From: Rhodoluna limnophila
GTDB lineage: Bacteria; Actinomycetota; Actinomycetes; Actinomycetales; Microbacteriaceae
Direction: 5' to 3'
Length of the DNA stretch: 64,000 bases
NCBI GenBank assembly: GCA_945883505.1
Contig: CAMCXL010000004.1
Span: forward strand, 62,001 to 126,000
Every line of letters begins with the position of its first letter. The first letter of the stretch is position 1. The notes beneath the pieces were generated by a model that saw only the letters and a program-made list of their open reading frames with translations, was not told the origin of the DNA and searched no databases. The position numbers were made by a program, and so were the translations under genes. This document shows positions 33,581 through 42,425 of the stretch, in pieces.

Positions 33581-34368
33581 CCGGAGCCGGAAATTTCCCT
33601 AATTCGCTGGTCTTCAACCAGGCGCCACCACAAAAACACGGCAAAAACCCCAAACAAGACCCATTCCACGGCATAGAACAGGGTCAACCAGTTCACCTGA
33701 GTGCCAACCCGCTGGGGAGGTAGCGCGATTCGCTCAAGCCCAAGGCCGGGTTCGGCATCGAGGGCCAAGAAACCAGCGAAGGATTCAACTGGTGGTCCTT
33801 CATACAGGTTCACCAGTTGCGCAAGGGACAGGCTCTCGAGAACGTACGGTTTGTCCGGATCAGAAATTGCAACCGGTCCCTCGGTTTGCAGGTAGCGACC
33901 GGTGGATTCTAAAAATGCTTGCACCAGAATAGATTCTTGAAGTTCGGCTCTTGCCTTCTCGGCCTGTTCCAGTGTGTCTGCATAACCGATTGCCACCGTC
34001 AAAGATCCAGTCGCATCGTCATCGGATAACAGCGCACCGGAATTTGAAATTAACCAAAACCCCTCAACAACTTCGTTGGCTGCTTGCTGCAGCCGGTTAG
34101 AAACAATGAAGACGTTGGACTGATCAATAAAAATGTTTGCCGAAACCAAAACGTTTGCGGCTTCGGCGGTCATCGGTGCCCCGGGAGTTGCAACCTCGTT
34201 CAACACCAGGACTTGCTCGTCTTCTGATTCCGGTTCAATTACGGTGAAGGTTCGATCCAACTGCCACTGCCCCAAAAGCGCAAACACGGCGGCCACGGCA
34301 AGAGAAAAAAATAATCCAGCAATCCACTTCGGTCTTCTCGCAATTGAAAAGAAAGTTGGGTTAGACAT
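33574..34368 (-). CDS. SURF1-family cytochrome oxidase assembly protein
   Basis: SURF1 proteins help assemble heme-copper cytochrome oxidase. The 264-residue protein has the family layout: an N-terminal membrane helix ending in GQWQLDR (about residues 17-38), a long extracytoplasmic part, and a C-terminal helix (NWLTLFYAVEWVLFGVFAVFLWWR, about 220-243) just before the tail. The external part has FIVSNRLQ and GRYLQTEGP where family members have conserved blocks. The ATG overlaps the guaB3 stop by one base. No oxidase genes are in the window, so the functional link is by family only. Confidence 0.85.
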   Translation of the reverse strand: MSNPTFFSIARRPKWIAGLFFSLAVAAVFALLGQWQLDRTFTVIEPESEDEQVLVLNEVATPGAPMTAEAANVLVSANIFIDQSNVFIVSNRLQQAANEVVEGFWLISNSGALLSDDDATGSLTVAIGYADTLEQAEKARAELQESILVQAFLESTGRYLQTEGPVAISDPDKPYVLESLSLAQLVNLYEGPPVESFAGFLALDAEPGLGLERIALPPQRVGTQVNWLTLFYAVEWVLFGVFAVFLWWRLVEDQRIREISGSGA

Positions 34369-35489
34369 TAGCTCTTGTGATATGGAGCCAGCACAACTTC
34401 AACTCGCTGGAATTCCTTTAGGTCTGAGTAGCCAGTTGTTGCCATTGACCGAGCTAGTGCTCCAACGATGTTTGTGACACCGTCTGCAGAAGTTGATGGG
34501 CCGGTAAGAATCTGAGCCAAGCTACCGTTTAGTCCAACCTTGACGCGATTGCCGCGAGGAAGTTCCTGGTGGTAAGCCTCCGCACCCCAGTGCCAGCCAC
34601 GACCTGGAGCATCCTTAGCCCTTGCAAGAATGGAGCCGATCATCACGGCATCTGCTCCACAAGAAATCGCCTTGACTATATCTCCTGAGGTTCCAAGCCC
34701 GCCATCGGCGATGACGTGGACATACCTGCCGCCGGATTCGTCCATGTAGTCTCTTCTGGCCCCGGCAACATCAGCCACAGCGGTGGCCATTGGGGCGTGG
34801 ATGCCAAGTACGGCACGGGTTGTGGTGGCGGCTCCGCCGCCAAATCCAACCAGAACGCCGGCTGCGCCGGTTCTCATCAGGTGAAGAGCTGCTGTGTAGT
34901 TTGCGACCCCTCCAACGATTACTGGGACATCAAGTTCATAGATGAACTTCTTTAGATTCAGCGCTTCGGTTTCTTTGGCAACGTGCTCAGCAGAAACTGT
35001 AGTCCCGCGAATCACAAAAAGATCAACTCCGGCTTTCAGTACGACGTCAGAAAACTGAGCGGTGCGCTGCGGTGACAGTGCCCCTGCCACCACAACTCCC
35101 CCGGCACGAACCTCAGCGATGCGATCACGGATTAGTTCAGGCTTGATTGGCTCTGAGTAAATCTGCTGCATACGAGAGGTGGAATCTTCTTCCGACAACT
35201 TTGAAATTTCATCGAGCAGTTTTTCCGGGTTGTCATACCTGGTCCAAAGACCTTCAAGATCTAAAACACCCAGTCCGCCGAGCTTGCCAATTTCAATTGC
35301 GGTGGCTGGGGAAACAACTGAGTCCATCGGTGCTGCCATGATCGGCATCTTGAATTCGTAGGCATCGATTGACCAACTGGTCGAGACGTCTTTGGGATCA
35401 CGGGTTCTTCTGGTTGGAACAATAGCGATGTCGTCGAAGGCATAAGCGCGCTTGGCGCGCTTATTTCTGCCAATTTCAATTTCAGTCAT
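34368..35489 (-). CDS. guaB3: GuaB3-type IMP dehydrogenase-family protein
   Basis: This 373-residue protein is a CBS-less member of the IMP dehydrogenase family. It has AYAFDDIAIVPTRRTRDP at the N terminus, MPIMAAPMDSVVSP, IADGGLGTSGDIVKAISCGADAVMIGS, and GWHWGAEAYHQELPRG near residue 300. It differs from GuaB in lacking the GSICTT cysteine loop: the equivalent region reads GFGGGAATTTRAVLG. Such paralogues are typical of actinobacteria and cyanobacteria, where GuaB3 can act as an IMP dehydrogenase. It follows guaB by 10 bases. Confidence 0.92.
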   Translation of the reverse strand: MTEIEIGRNKRAKRAYAFDDIAIVPTRRTRDPKDVSTSWSIDAYEFKMPIMAAPMDSVVSPATAIEIGKLGGLGVLDLEGLWTRYDNPEKLLDEISKLSEEDSTSRMQQIYSEPIKPELIRDRIAEVRAGGVVVAGALSPQRTAQFSDVVLKAGVDLFVIRGTTVSAEHVAKETEALNLKKFIYELDVPVIVGGVANYTAALHLMRTGAAGVLVGFGGGAATTTRAVLGIHAPMATAVADVAGARRDYMDESGGRYVHVIADGGLGTSGDIVKAISCGADAVMIGSILARAKDAPGRGWHWGAEAYHQELPRGNRVKVGLNGSLAQILTGPSTSADGVTNIVGALARSMATTGYSDLKEFQRVEVVLAPYHKS

Positions 35490-35499
35490 GGGTCACTTT

Positions 35500-37014
<1,515 letters not shown>

Positions 37015-37135: not shown

Positions 37136-37154
37136 GAAACGACTTGGAGGCACT

Positions 37155-38462
37155 GTGATCCTCTCACGAAGCCGCACTGGGGCCAAATACTGGACTCAAA
37201 TAGGCCTTCTCACGACGATTCTGACCCTAATGTTTGGGGGTCTGTTCGCGACCAGTGCTTCAGCCGATTCTGTTGGCGAGGACCTCCCCTACCGGGTCCA
37301 GGGAAACGTCAAAAACGAAGGTACTGCACTCGAGGGCGTTCGAATCGTGGTTTCTGGCGGTGGCTACACCGCAGAGACCGTAACTGATGCCGATGGTAAA
37401 TGGCTTATCGGTGTTCCCGAAAAGGCCGGATACAGCGTAAGCCTTGACCAGTCAACCCTTCCTGAAGGCATTGCCGTTATCGAGGAAGGCGGAGCCGAGC
37501 AATCGGTTGAAATCGGACCATCGGGGGCCGTAACAAAGAACTTCTTCATCGGCGAAGGCGAGCGAATCGTCGTTAGCCTGTTCGATCAAATCATCGCCCG
37601 CATAATTTATGGATTGAACTTTGGTTTGATGCTTGGACTGGCTGCGGTCGGACTCTCGTTGGTTTTCGGAACCACAGGGTTATCAAACTTTGCCCACGCC
37701 GAAATGGTTACCTTCGGTGCGGTAACTGCATTTTTCCTAGGCGGGGTTTTATCCCTGCCTATTTGGATTGCGATACCTGTGGCGGTACTAATAAGCGGAG
37801 CGATGGGCTGGGGTTTGGACTCTGGACTTTGGAGGCCGCTTAGAAGAAGAGGCTTGGGACTTGTTCAGCTCATGATCGTCTCCATTGGTTTGTCGCTTGC
37901 CGTTAGATACATCTTCCAATTCTTCGTTGGCGGTGGAACTAACCAGCTTCCCGGTTTTGACGCACCAAAGATTAAGCTCTTTGGCGCAACCTCGTTGAGC
38001 ATCATCGACATAACGAGTATGGTTCTAAGCCTGGTTGTGATTTTTGCTTTTGCTTGGTGGCTACTAAACACCCAGACCGGTAAAGCCACCCGGGCCATTT
38101 CCGATAACCCCGACCTAGCGGCTGCCTCGGGAATTGACGTTGACAAGGTGATTCGAATTGTTTGGATTGTTGCCGCAGGCCTTGCCGGTCTTTCCGGTGT
38201 GCTCTGGGCTTACTTCCGCCCAGGCATCAAGTGGGACATGGGTGCCCAGATCTTGCTGCTTATCTTTGCGGCCGTGACCCTTGGAGGCCTAGGAACCGCA
38301 TTCGGTGCCCTACTTGGCGCCCTGGTGGTTGGCATGTTGGTTGAGGTATCGAGCCTGGTTATCCCGTCAGATTTGAAGTATGTAGGAGCCTTGGTCGTTT
38401 TGATCGTGATCTTGCTGGTCAGGCCACAAGGAATCCTCGGCCGAAAAGAACGAATAGGTTAG
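37155..38462 (+). CDS. livH: LivH-type permease with N-terminal extracytoplasmic Ig-like domain
   Basis: The C-terminal part (about residues 150-435) is a branched-chain amino-acid-type ABC permease, with GLSLVFGTTGLSNFAHAEMVTFGA, DNPDLAAASGIDVDKV and GLGTAFGALLGALVVGM. Ahead of it is an unusual extension: a signal-like helix ending ATSASADS (about residue 38) and a domain at about 45-135 (YRVQGNVKNEGTALEGVRI, DADGKWLIGVPEKAGY) that looks like a carboxypeptidase-regulatory/prealbumin-like beta sandwich. Standard LivH proteins are about 300 residues; this is 435. The GTG start has GGAGG 4 bases before it. It is the first gene of livHMGF. Confidence 0.93.
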   Translation: MILSRSRTGAKYWTQIGLLTTILTLMFGGLFATSASADSVGEDLPYRVQGNVKNEGTALEGVRIVVSGGGYTAETVTDADGKWLIGVPEKAGYSVSLDQSTLPEGIAVIEEGGAEQSVEIGPSGAVTKNFFIGEGERIVVSLFDQIIARIIYGLNFGLMLGLAAVGLSLVFGTTGLSNFAHAEMVTFGAVTAFFLGGVLSLPIWIAIPVAVLISGAMGWGLDSGLWRPLRRRGLGLVQLMIVSIGLSLAVRYIFQFFVGGGTNQLPGFDAPKIKLFGATSLSIIDITSMVLSLVVIFAFAWWLLNTQTGKATRAISDNPDLAAASGIDVDKVIRIVWIVAAGLAGLSGVLWAYFRPGIKWDMGAQILLLIFAAVTLGGLGTAFGALLGALVVGMLVEVSSLVIPSDLKYVGALVVLIVILLVRPQGILGRKERIG

Positions 38463-38472
38463 GGACGAAATC

Positions 38473-39453
38473 ATGGACTGGTCAGCAATTTTTTCAAACA
38501 CCGCTCAGGGTCTTTTCAGCCCGGCCACCATGGCCTTTGCCTTGGCCGCTCTGGGTCTTGCGATGCACTTCGGTTTCGCCGGCCTATTGAACTTTGGTAT
38601 CGCAGGCTTTATGGCAATTGGCGCCTACGGCTACGCAATTTCTATTCTCACCTTCGGTTTCGAATGGTGGCAGGGAATCTTGGTGAGCTTAGTTGCCTCG
38701 GTGATCTTCTCCTTGATTCTGGGTATTCCAACACTTCGTCTTCGAGGTGATTACCTGGCGATTGTCACAATTGCTGCCGCTGAGATCCTGCGCTTGTTAT
38801 TTCTTACAAACGCCTTCGTCGATGTCACGGGAAGTGCCGATGGGCTCTCTGGCTACCACAACAGCTTCAGAGCAGCCAACCCGTTCCCGGTTGGCGACTA
38901 CGGCTTCGGACCGTGGACATATAACAACAACGAGATGTGGGTTTTGGTTCTAGGCCTTCTAACTCTCGTGATCTGCGTTTCGATTTTGCTACTTCTTATC
39001 AACAGCCCATGGGGCCGAGTTATTAAGGGTATCCGCGAAGACGAAGATGCCGTTAGAGCACTGGGTAAGAACGTCTTCGCATATAAGATGCAGGCGCTAA
39101 TCATCGGAGGTATCTTCGGATCCCTCGGTGGAATTGTTTACGCATTGCCATCTTCTGTGAATCCGGGTGTCTACGTCACGTCGCTAACCTTCTTTGTCTG
39201 GACAGCGCTTTTACTTGGCGGGGCGGCCACCATCTTTGGTCCAGTCCTGGGAGCAGTAATCTTCTGGGTGCTGCAGGCTTTCCTATCGAACGTTTTGCCT
39301 CAGCTGGTCTCAAGCGGTCTGCTTCCGTTTATTAGCAGCATTCAGGCTTCGACCATTAGATTCATCCTGGTTGGCGTTGGCTTGATGTTGCTGGTTATCT
39401 ATCGACCCCAGGGAATCCTTGGAGACAAGAAGGAGCTGACTTTTGTCAAGTAG
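38473..39453 (+). CDS. livM: LivM-type branched-chain amino-acid ABC permease
   Basis: This is the second membrane subunit of the importer. The 326-residue protein has about nine helices and the family motifs GLAMHFGFAGLLNFGIAGFMAIGAYGYA, PTLRLRGDYLAIVTIAAAEILRL and INSPWGRVIKGIREDEDAVRALGKNVFAYKMQAL (the coupling loop to the ATPases). GGAATIFGPVLGAVIF is near the end. AGGGA precedes the ATG by 9 bases. The gene follows livH by 10 bases and overlaps livG. Confidence 0.95.
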   Translation: MDWSAIFSNTAQGLFSPATMAFALAALGLAMHFGFAGLLNFGIAGFMAIGAYGYAISILTFGFEWWQGILVSLVASVIFSLILGIPTLRLRGDYLAIVTIAAAEILRLLFLTNAFVDVTGSADGLSGYHNSFRAANPFPVGDYGFGPWTYNNNEMWVLVLGLLTLVICVSILLLLINSPWGRVIKGIREDEDAVRALGKNVFAYKMQALIIGGIFGSLGGIVYALPSSVNPGVYVTSLTFFVWTALLLGGAATIFGPVLGAVIFWVLQAFLSNVLPQLVSSGLLPFISSIQASTIRFILVGVGLMLLVIYRPQGILGDKKELTFVK

Positions 39454-40348
39454 CGCAAATACTCCGGCCAATCCGGCAGCCAAAACCACCGGCCTACACA
39501 TTGGAGAAATACGTCCAGGTGTTGCCAAGGTGGACCCTATTGTCACAATCGATGGTGTCTCCCGTCACTTCGGAGGTCTGACCGCGGTTGACGTTGAGCA
39601 CCTGGAGATACCAAGGGGCGCAATCACGGCCCTGATTGGTCCAAATGGTGCAGGCAAGACAACGCTGTTCAACTTGCTGACCGGCTTTGACAAGCCAGAC
39701 ACCGGAACCTGGAGCTTCGCGGGCCATGCCCTGGCTGGTATCCCTGCTTTCAAGGTTGCCCAGATGGGTCAGGTTAGAACTTTCCAGCTCACCAAGGCTC
39801 TTAGCTTGCTGACTGTTTTGGAGAACATGAAGCTTGGAGCCAAGGATCAGCGCGGCGAAAAGCTTTTGTACTCTCTGTTCCCATTCCTATGGAAGGCCAA
39901 GGAAGCCGAGATCGAAGCCAAGGCCATGGAGCTACTAAAGCGCTTCAAGTTAGATACCAAGAAGGATGACTTCGCTGCCAGCTTGTCTGGTGGTCAGCGC
40001 AAGCTTCTGGAAATGGCCAGGGCCTTGATGACTGACCCGGTTCTAGTGATGCTGGATGAGCCAATGGCTGGAGTAAACCCAGCCCTCACCCAGTCACTTC
40101 TTGAGCACGTGCTGGGTCTGAAAAAAGAAGGCATGACCGTATTGTTTGTTGAGCACGACATGCACATGGTTCGTCACATCGCCGACTGGGTAATTGTGAT
40201 GGCAGAAGGCAAGGTCGTTGCCGAAGGACCGGCTGACCAGGTTATGAAAAACCCTGCGGTTATCGACGCTTACCTTGGTTCACACCAGGACGACGACCTT
40301 GGAACTATCACCGGTCGAATTACGCTTCCAAAAAAGGGAAAGAAGTAA
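39443..40348 (+). CDS. livG: LivG-type ABC importer ATPase
   Basis: This ATPase pairs with LivF to power the importer. The 301-residue protein has a 30-residue lead, then Walker A GPNGAGKTT, the LivG-type signature LSGGQRKLLEMARALM, Walker B LVMLDEPMAGVNP and the switch histidine in VLFVEHDMHMV. The start is a TTG at 39443 inside the end of livM, supported by AAGGAG at 39430-39435 with 7-base spacing. It ends GKK, four bases before livF. Confidence 0.95.
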   Translation: MSSSANTPANPAAKTTGLHIGEIRPGVAKVDPIVTIDGVSRHFGGLTAVDVEHLEIPRGAITALIGPNGAGKTTLFNLLTGFDKPDTGTWSFAGHALAGIPAFKVAQMGQVRTFQLTKALSLLTVLENMKLGAKDQRGEKLLYSLFPFLWKAKEAEIEAKAMELLKRFKLDTKKDDFAASLSGGQRKLLEMARALMTDPVLVMLDEPMAGVNPALTQSLLEHVLGLKKEGMTVLFVEHDMHMVRHIADWVIVMAEGKVVAEGPADQVMKNPAVIDAYLGSHQDDDLGTITGRITLPKKGKK

Positions 40349-40351
40349 ACC

Positions 40352-41077
40352 ATGGCAAAGACTCCAGTTATTGAAACCCATGATCTAGTTGCCGGGTACC
40401 TTCCAGGTGTTAACATCCTGAACGGAGCCAACTTCTTTGCCGATCAGGGTGAGCTGGTTGGAATCATCGGACCAAACGGTGCCGGTAAGTCCACACTCTT
40501 GAAAGCAATCTTTGGTCTTGTGAAAGTTCGCGAGGGTGACATCAAGCTAAACGGCGAATCCATCGCCAACCTAAAAGCCAACCAACTAGTTGCCAAGGGC
40601 GTTGGCTTTGTTCCTCAGAACAACAACGTCTTTCCGTCTCTAACCATTGAAGAAAACCTTCAGATGGGTGTTTTTCAAAAGCCCAAGGAATACGCCGAGC
40701 GCATCGAGTTCGTCACCAGCATTTTTGCTGAGCTCGGCAAGAGATTGAAGCAGCGTGCTGGATCACTCTCCGGTGGTGAGCGTCAGATGGTTGCGATGAG
40801 CCGTGCTCTGATGATGGACCCTCAGGTGCTGCTCCTGGATGAGCCATCGGCTGGTCTATCTCCTGTTCGTCAGGACGAGGCTTTCATTCGGGTTTCGGAA
40901 ATCAATAAGGCTGGAGTGACAACCATCATGGTTGAGCAAAACGCCCGTCGTTGCCTCCAGATCTCAGACCGAGCTTACGTTTTGGACCAGGGTAAGGACG
41001 CCGTGGTTGGAACCGGTCGTGAGCTACTAAATGACCCGAAGGTCATCGGTCTCTACCTAGGAACCCTGGGAGAATAA
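40352..41077 (+). CDS. livF: LivF-type ABC importer ATPase
   Basis: This is the second ATPase of the importer. The 241-residue protein has Walker A GPNGAGKST, the LivF-specific FVPQNNNVFPSLTIEENLQMG, signature LSGGERQMVAMSRALM, Walker B LLLDEPSAGLSP and the switch segment TIMVEQNARRCL. It has the usual length for LivF. It closes the livHMGF operon. A strong hairpin follows and the convergent binding-protein gene lies beyond. Confidence 0.95.
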   Translation: MAKTPVIETHDLVAGYLPGVNILNGANFFADQGELVGIIGPNGAGKSTLLKAIFGLVKVREGDIKLNGESIANLKANQLVAKGVGFVPQNNNVFPSLTIEENLQMGVFQKPKEYAERIEFVTSIFAELGKRLKQRAGSLSGGERQMVAMSRALMMDPQVLLLDEPSAGLSPVRQDEAFIRVSEINKAGVTTIMVEQNARRCLQISDRAYVLDQGKDAVVGTGRELLNDPKVIGLYLGTLGE

Positions 41078-41171: not shown

Positions 41172-42425
41172 TTACTTGAATGGAACGTAGGTGTTGTCGT
41201 CCTGGTAGACGTAAACACCGATGCTCGCCTCAGTTGGGTCACCGTTCTCGTCGAATGTGATCGGACCAGAAACGCCATCGTAGTCGGCTACTCCGCCGCC
41301 ATTGATGATGTCAGCACACTCAGCAAAGCTGGTGCACTTGGTTCCGCCACCGGAGCCGCCAGAAACTTCCTGGAGCTTGCCGGCCATGTCAACGCCCTCT
41401 ACTGAACCAGCAGCTAGAGCTGCAAGTGCTAGTAGAACAACTGCGTCGTATGACTCAGGTCCGTATGAGTAAACGCCAGCTAGGTCAGGGTTACCCTCTG
41501 CTACCCAGTTTGCGTTCATGGTCTCTAGGAATGCAGGAATGGTCTCAATGTCCAAACCAGGAAGAGTTCCCTTAGCGCCGGTTAGGGTGCCAGGCTCAAA
41601 GTCCTCAGAGAAGTTAGCTAGGTTTCCATCGACGAAGTAAAGCTTGTCGGCTGGGAACTGGCTTACTAGCTGAGGAATGATTGTCTTAACTTCCTCGAAT
41701 GTAATCAAAACGATTGCATCTGGGCTGGTTGCAAGAACTTCAGAAATCTGAGCACTGAAGTTGGTGTCACCAGTGTTGTAGGTAGGTGCAGCTAGAACTT
41801 CTCCACCAGCAGCTTCAAAAGCTTCGGTGGTGAATCCTGCTAGACCGGTACCGTATGAGTCGTTTAGAACGATCATGGCGATCTTCTCGTGACCGTCAGC
41901 AGCGATTAGGTTACCAAGAACCTCACCCTGTAGAACGTCAGAAGGAGCAGTACGGAAGTAAAGACCCTTGTCGTCGTAGGTGGTCAACGCAGCAGAAGTG
42001 TTCGCAGGTGAGAACTGGATTACTCCAGCGCCAACAACCTGGTCAATGAACTGCAATGAAGTACCTGATGATGCAGCACCGATGATTGCCTTAACGCCAG
42101 CGTTTAGAAGACGAGGAATCTCAGTCTCGTAAGCCTTGTTGTCGGTGTCTCCAGAGTCTCCCCATTCAACCTCGACCTGAATACCCTTGTCAGCTTCGTT
42201 GATCTCCTTGATAGCAAGAGCAACACCAGCTTCTTCAGGTGGGCCTAGGAAGGCTAGGTTACCGGTCTGCGGAAGAGCAGTACCGATCTTTAGTGTTAGC
42301 TCGCCACCTGCAGCGCCACCGTCTCCGGTAGCTGCGCAGCCAGAAAGAACTAGAGCAGCAGCAGCAAGAGTTGCAACTGCAGCAGCGGCCTTTCTGTTAC
42401 GGCGAGAGAATGAAAATGAACTCAT
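41172..42425 (-). CDS. ABC branched-chain amino-acid-type substrate-binding lipoprotein
   Basis: The 417-residue protein begins with a lipoprotein signal (SRRNRKAAAAVATLAAAALV then lipobox LSGC near residue 30). The mature part is a type I periplasmic-binding fold: TLKIGTALPQTGNLAFLGPPEEAG, a serine/threonine-rich ligand site IIGAASSGTSLQF, VIQFSPANTSAALT, MIVLNDSYGTG, and a C-terminal IGVYVYQDD. It is the probable receptor of livHMGF but is on the opposite strand, converging on livF. AAGGAG lies before the ATG. The real ligand could be an amino acid, an amide or urea-like compounds, which share this family. Confidence 0.93.
   Translation of the reverse strand: MSSFSFSRRNRKAAAAVATLAAAALVLSGCAATGDGGAAGGELTLKIGTALPQTGNLAFLGPPEEAGVALAIKEINEADKGIQVEVEWGDSGDTDNKAYETEIPRLLNAGVKAIIGAASSGTSLQFIDQVVGAGVIQFSPANTSAALTTYDDKGLYFRTAPSDVLQGEVLGNLIAADGHEKIAMIVLNDSYGTGLAGFTTEAFEAAGGEVLAAPTYNTGDTNFSAQISEVLATSPDAIVLITFEEVKTIIPQLVSQFPADKLYFVDGNLANFSEDFEPGTLTGAKGTLPGLDIETIPAFLETMNANWVAEGNPDLAGVYSYGPESYDAVVLLALAALAAGSVEGVDMAGKLQEVSGGSGGGTKCTSFAECADIINGGGVADYDGVSGPITFDENGDPTEASIGVYVYQDDNTYVPFK

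Follow-up and report, generated by a model that had tools for sequence, protein, structure and literature searches.

An exported prealbumin-like domain at the N-terminus of an actinobacterial LivH permease, with a possible role in docking the substrate-binding protein

HAAT (branched-chain amino acid) ABC importers are among the commonest amino-acid importers. In a 64,000-nucleotide stretch of the genome of Rhodoluna limnophila, a small actinobacterium of fresh water (the window), we find a livH gene whose product, as read from its sequence, almost certainly joins a signal peptide, a beta domain, a linker helix and a LivH permease in one chain. The domain is a real and apparently undescribed add-on: no papers describing a LivH with a prealbumin-like domain were found in searches of a collection of open-access papers, and proteins of this architecture sit in public databases as ordinary permeases. 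It appears to have been gained once, near the base of an actinobacterial LivH clade; at least nine in ten of the sampled close homologues keep it, and the genomes examined show no more than two losses. This history of one gain, wide retention and two losses suggests that an exported permease domain is useful to the importer in bacteria with lipoprotein substrate-binding proteins (SBPs). In Luna-1 freshwater bacteria, livK is reported to rank with the uptake genes of highest transcription (PMC12422013), which makes the importer ecologically relevant.

The livH gene and its start

The open reading frame at 37155-38462 on the plus strand encodes a 435-residue protein, in which the LivH family model PF02653 covers residues 150-420 and thus leaves about 149 extra residues ahead of the core, in agreement with the roughly 150 claimed by a previous sequence-only reading of this DNA. 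The GTG start at 37155 follows a GGAGG motif by four bases (Table 1). Among 99 distinct homologues, the start codon falls in the same alignment column in every case (GTG 82, ATG 12, TTG 5), and a Shine-Dalgarno core precedes that column in 98. The only in-frame ATG, GTG or TTG codons within residues 2-153 are those at residues 26 and 65, both without a Shine-Dalgarno site, and none occurs between residues 66 and 153. With the start and its Shine-Dalgarno site conserved and no start codon in the latter stretch, the extension is real and there is in effect no room for an internal start.

The sequence-only reading had itself named evidence for an internal start near residue 140 as what would refute the fusion; the conserved start, and the lack of any start codon in that region, speak against one. 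Such a mis-called start, with the upstream frame not translated as a fusion, has in its favour only that plain LivH proteins begin at that point; besides the start-site evidence, it conflicts with the conservation of the beta domain at the protein level and with a dN/dS of 0.05-0.07, and we give it a negligible probability. No sigma-70-like promoter or terminator was found near the livH start, and no Rfam match (RNA element) in the locus.

Table 1. Features of the livH locus, in positions of the window
Feature	Position	Strand	Remarks
guaB, divergent neighbour	35500..37005	-	with GuaB3, conserved left border of the locus
Shine-Dalgarno GGAGG of livH	37146..37150	+	read directly; core in 98/99 distinct homologues
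Signal peptide, residues 1-37	37155..37265	+	GTG start; hydrophobic helix at residues 9-31; A35-x-A37 followed by D38
Prealbumin-like / CarboxypepD_reg-like beta domain, residues 38-136	37266..37562	+	ends in conserved N-F-F-I-G-E-G motif
Linker and pre-TM1 helix, residues 137-149	37563..37601	+	R137 invariant, Q145 >=90%
LivH permease core, residues 150-435, plus stop	37602..38462	+	PF02653 E 2.8e-39; N-out by loop-charge parity
livM, second permease, without extension	38473..39453	+	PF02653 2e-41; best NCBIfam LivM
livG ATPase	39443..40348	+	
livF ATPase	40352..41077	+	
Lipoprotein SBP (Peripla_BP_6), convergent	41172..42425	-	only one in genome

Fold and membrane topology

The signal-like helix and AxA-type site described from the sequence alone are both borne out, A35 and A37 each being at least 90% conserved among homologues, and we infer cleavage directly behind A37. 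For the domain that follows, PF13620 (CarboxypepD_reg) gives E 2.7e-5 and 24.9 bits, below its gathering threshold of 32.3, and the same model is found at E <= 0.01 in 33 of 35 homologues (best 3.3e-8). Weaker matches of these relatives are to the CarbopepD_reg_2, SpaA prealbumin-like and SdrD_B models, and 6 of the 35 match the start of the SusC/RagA model at E about 1e-3.

AlphaFold2, run with an alignment of 56 relatives, modelled the full LivH with a pLDDT of 83 and the domain as a 7-8-stranded beta fold with a pLDDT of about 80-88 (81 for the domain alone). Foldseek matched the modelled domain to the transthyretin-like domain of carboxypeptidase D (5aq0, TM 0.58/0.71), to CnaB2 (8bdw, TM 0.63/0.68), to 5-hydroxyisourate hydrolase (3qva, TM 0.61) and to the B domains of SdrD/UafA. 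On these models the N-terminal domain has a prealbumin-like fold, and the prealbumin/carboxypeptidase-regulatory-like class first proposed is right; the accompanying label "Ig-like" is right in a broad sense only, prealbumin-like being the specific fold class. We considered a CnaB isopeptide domain and rejected it: reading the alignment by eye, we found no conserved lysine column in the first strand, and a CnaB-type isopeptide bond is thus not a family trait. A Nonomuraea homologue (L145:3935-5218), whose gene adjoins polA, has two cysteines in the domain that could form a disulfide.

The permease itself scores 135.3 bits with PF02653 (BPD_transp_2; gathering threshold 26.8), along profile positions 2-269 of 269. 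With NF008011, the E. coli-type LivH equivalog, it reaches 95 bits against a cut-off of 379, and with the UrtB model TIGR03409 it reaches 140.4 against 250.3, short by 110 bits. Sequence searches, among them one with a profile of this permease, found no solved relative either of the permease or of the whole LivH protein. With the helices placed as in the AlphaFold model, an outside N-terminus is the only arrangement that puts the basic TM3-4 loop WRPLRRRG, the coupling loop between TM5 and TM6 and the basic C-tail RPQGILGRKERIG all in the cytoplasm. By topology, then, the N-terminus and the beta domain face outside, as the sequence-only reading had placed them, and this is the orientation that a cleaved signal peptide and an exported domain require. 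The domain had also been called secreted, which is loose: it is exported but remains tethered to TM1.

Operon context and substrate

The order GuaB3-GuaB, livH-livM-livG-livF and convergent SBP gene is kept in most Microbacteriaceae loci, and livH-livM-livG-livF with the convergent SBP gene recurs in other classes without the gua genes. In the window, GuaB3 and GuaB form a tandem pair of the IMP-dehydrogenase type (34368-37005), a conserved divergent neighbour across Microbacteriaceae. The SBP gene is separate and convergent, just as had been noted, and its product is the sole PF13458 protein of the genome, which makes it the only partner in sight for LivH.

This SBP resembles amino-acid and Leu/Ile/Val binding proteins. 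A urea importer was also considered and is unlikely: the UrtB cut-off is missed, and urease alpha (PF00449) has no match in the 98% complete genome. On homology alone, then, the substrate is probably amino acids. Salinibacterium-like loci (L043, L046, L047, L056, L059, L110) have a second, weaker SBP-like gene beside the first, possibly a duplicated binding protein sharing one importer.

Distribution, gain and losses

Genome-search counts are given as lower bounds. LivH of this type occurs in at least 108 of 150 Microbacteriaceae genomes, and a single-sequence query detected the N-terminal domain in at least 103 of those 108. Three of the five that the query missed (L180, L181, L184) have the domain by profile, while L178 and L179, from one genus, lack it; the domain is kept, in total, in 106 of the 108 sampled genomes having this LivH. 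Across 397 Actinomycetota genomes there were at least 59 LivH matches at E <= 2e-75, at least 54 of them with an adjacent N-domain match. Among the five others, the domain is weaker but clear in one (G446), a contig end cuts LivH but leaves the second half of the domain visible in another (G451), LivH is cut by contig ends in two (G355, G219), and one is a Streptomyces-type LivH without the domain (G278). Weaker LivH matches (E 5e-72 to 9e-41) had an adjacent domain in none of 51 cases, one of which is a contig-end fragment.

Plain LivH proteins, that is, Streptomyces paralogues and other distant LivH, have a short N-tail only, as originally held of ordinary LivH. The fusion that had been pointed out is real but not a local feature, the extension being the rule in the actinobacterial LivH clade. 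In one genome of the same genus as the window's, the homologue at the same syntenic place (L165:4755-6086) combines a long permease branch with an N-domain that has diverged strongly (35% identity), which suggests fast change or replacement.

A tree of 114 permease cores, built with the domain columns left out, requires three domain-state changes where 23 are expected for shuffled labels; the tree was built quickly, has some long branches and uses an outgroup chosen by hand. On this tree, the simplest history in Actinomycetota is a single gain with two losses. In the Streptomyces-type loss (L146, L167-L170, L182, L183; found in 5 of the 61 genomes sampled from that genus), the signal peptide and an AxA-like site are kept and lead straight into TM1. 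In the loss in the Microbacteriaceae genus (L178:5257-6300, L179:5133-6131), at the same locus, signal peptide and domain are both gone. Since livM, livG, livF and the convergent SBP gene all persist in both lineages, use of the binding protein does not strictly require the domain.

Where the domain is present, comparison with three close relatives gives it a dN/dS of 0.05-0.07, against 0.03-0.04 in the permease; dS is near saturation. Column conservation averages 0.65 over the domain, 0.78 over the permease and 0.40 over the signal peptide. Purifying selection on the extended LivH together with the importer is strongly supported by these sequence comparisons.

Possible function of the domain

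Our working proposal, to which we give a little less than an even chance, is that the domain serves as a membrane-anchored arm that docks or positions the lipoprotein SBP. The sequence strongly supports a chain whose signal peptide takes the prealbumin-like beta-sandwich, some 100 residues long, to the outside of the membrane and which then runs into TM1 of an otherwise normal LivH. The domain would presumably sit beside or above the translocation mouth, where it could raise the local concentration of the SBP, or orient it, over the LivH-LivM gate; such an arm would help the importer without being indispensable. More tentatively, the extended permeases could form a phylum-wide LivH class in which a built-in prealbumin-like arm docks or gates the lipoprotein SBP.

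Docking is supported by the conserved partnership of livH-livM-livG-livF with the SBP, by the single origin and by the long retention of the domain. It is the most economical reading of the membrane side, the one genomic partner, the MalF-P2 precedent (see below) and distances that track the SBP: N-domain and SBP distances correlate with a partial r of 0.29 (p 0.001) controlling for GuaB, LivG and LivF, and still, weakly, with r 0.18 (p 0.006) when LivM and the LivH core are controlled too. The N-domain/SBP correlation is, however, no greater than those of the LivH core (0.35) and of LivM (0.31) with the SBP, and coevolution of domain and SBP is present but not stronger than for the other subunits. 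Both partners are acidic (net charge -10 for the domain, -40 for the mature SBP), so bulk electrostatics would not attract them. The SBP gene also lies in the same place in the domain-less L146, L178, L179, L182 and L183, which counts against docking. With an unspecific correlation, two acidic partners and domain-less relatives that manage, docking stays a proposal.

The main rival, in our analysis, is a role in biogenesis. The signal peptide and a fast-folding domain might force insertion of TM1 with the N-terminus outside and stabilise LivH or its assembly with LivM, with no part in the transport cycle; we regard this reading as rather unlikely. The closest argument for biogenesis comes from the SusC N-terminal extension, which has the same Pfam family pair and fold behind a signal peptide on a nutrient importer, and whose deletion is dominant-negative (PMC7782687); the matches of domain relatives to the SusC/RagA model point the same way. 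The Streptomyces-type loss, which keeps the signal peptide without the domain, implies that an export signal alone can be worth keeping. Plain LivH proteins, on the other hand, insert with a short N-tail only, and in the one Microbacteriaceae genus the operon outlasted the joint loss of signal peptide and domain.

A third role, as an envelope anchor or sensor that binds peptidoglycan, a surface protein or a ligand and thereby positions or regulates the importer, appears improbable. It would suit the best structural matches, which are interaction domains of surface proteins (B, CnaB and transthyretin-like), as well as the different, HEAT-like exported domain found at the same place in UrtB, from which it follows that the partner need not be the same for every exported N-domain of a LivH-type permease. 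It fits poorly with a domain that keeps the same operon context across the phylum and directly precedes LivH in the sampled close clade, and whose family search matched no known wall-binding family.

If docking holds, a docking or gating arm would be a solution for SBP delivery not described for the HAAT family, and the two lineages that shed the arm would be natural controls. The role of the domain is directly testable with the relatives that lack it and with UrtB, whose HEAT domain offers a parallel case.

Comparison with known systems

CnaB, SdrD B and transthyretin-like domains share the fold of the LivH domain (Foldseek E 1e-4 to 1e-3). Unlike CnaB, the LivH domain has no conserved first-strand lysine, occurs as a single copy and is carried by a permease.

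The N-terminal extension of SusC/RagA (PF13715; Bt1763 NTE, PDB 6YTC) has the same CarboxypepD_reg-like Ig/prealbumin fold, and likewise lies behind a signal peptide on a nutrient importer; growth on levan depends on it, and the authors of that work propose a function in biogenesis or in the cell that might not involve transport itself (PMC7782687). Unlike LivH, SusC/RagA belongs to no ABC transporter: it is a TonB-dependent barrel of the outer membrane, and its extension lies in the periplasm.

Among ABC permeases, MalF-P2, the large periplasmic region of MalF, contacts the binding protein MalE directly (PMC3150292). Like the LivH domain it is extracytoplasmic, contains beta-sheets and belongs to a permease subunit, but it is internal, between transmembrane helices, and larger (residues 91-271).

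Proteobacterial UrtB, a subunit of urea importers, is, like the Rhodoluna protein, a LivH-type permease that starts with a signal-like segment and carries a large exported domain ahead of the permease; this domain is HEAT-like and alpha-helical in UrtB and beta in LivH. These UrtB proteins have 524-537 residues, with the permease beginning at about 233-245; in L198:1051-2625, L197:1033-2634 and L200:1012-2625 a HEAT-like domain of about 200 residues precedes it. The papers found gave no account of the role of this domain.

LivH of the HAAT importers (PF02653) has the same permease core, LivM/LivG/LivF operon partners and Peripla_BP_6 SBP. Where plain HAAT LivH has only a short N-tail, Rhodoluna LivH adds a signal peptide followed by a beta domain some 100 residues long.
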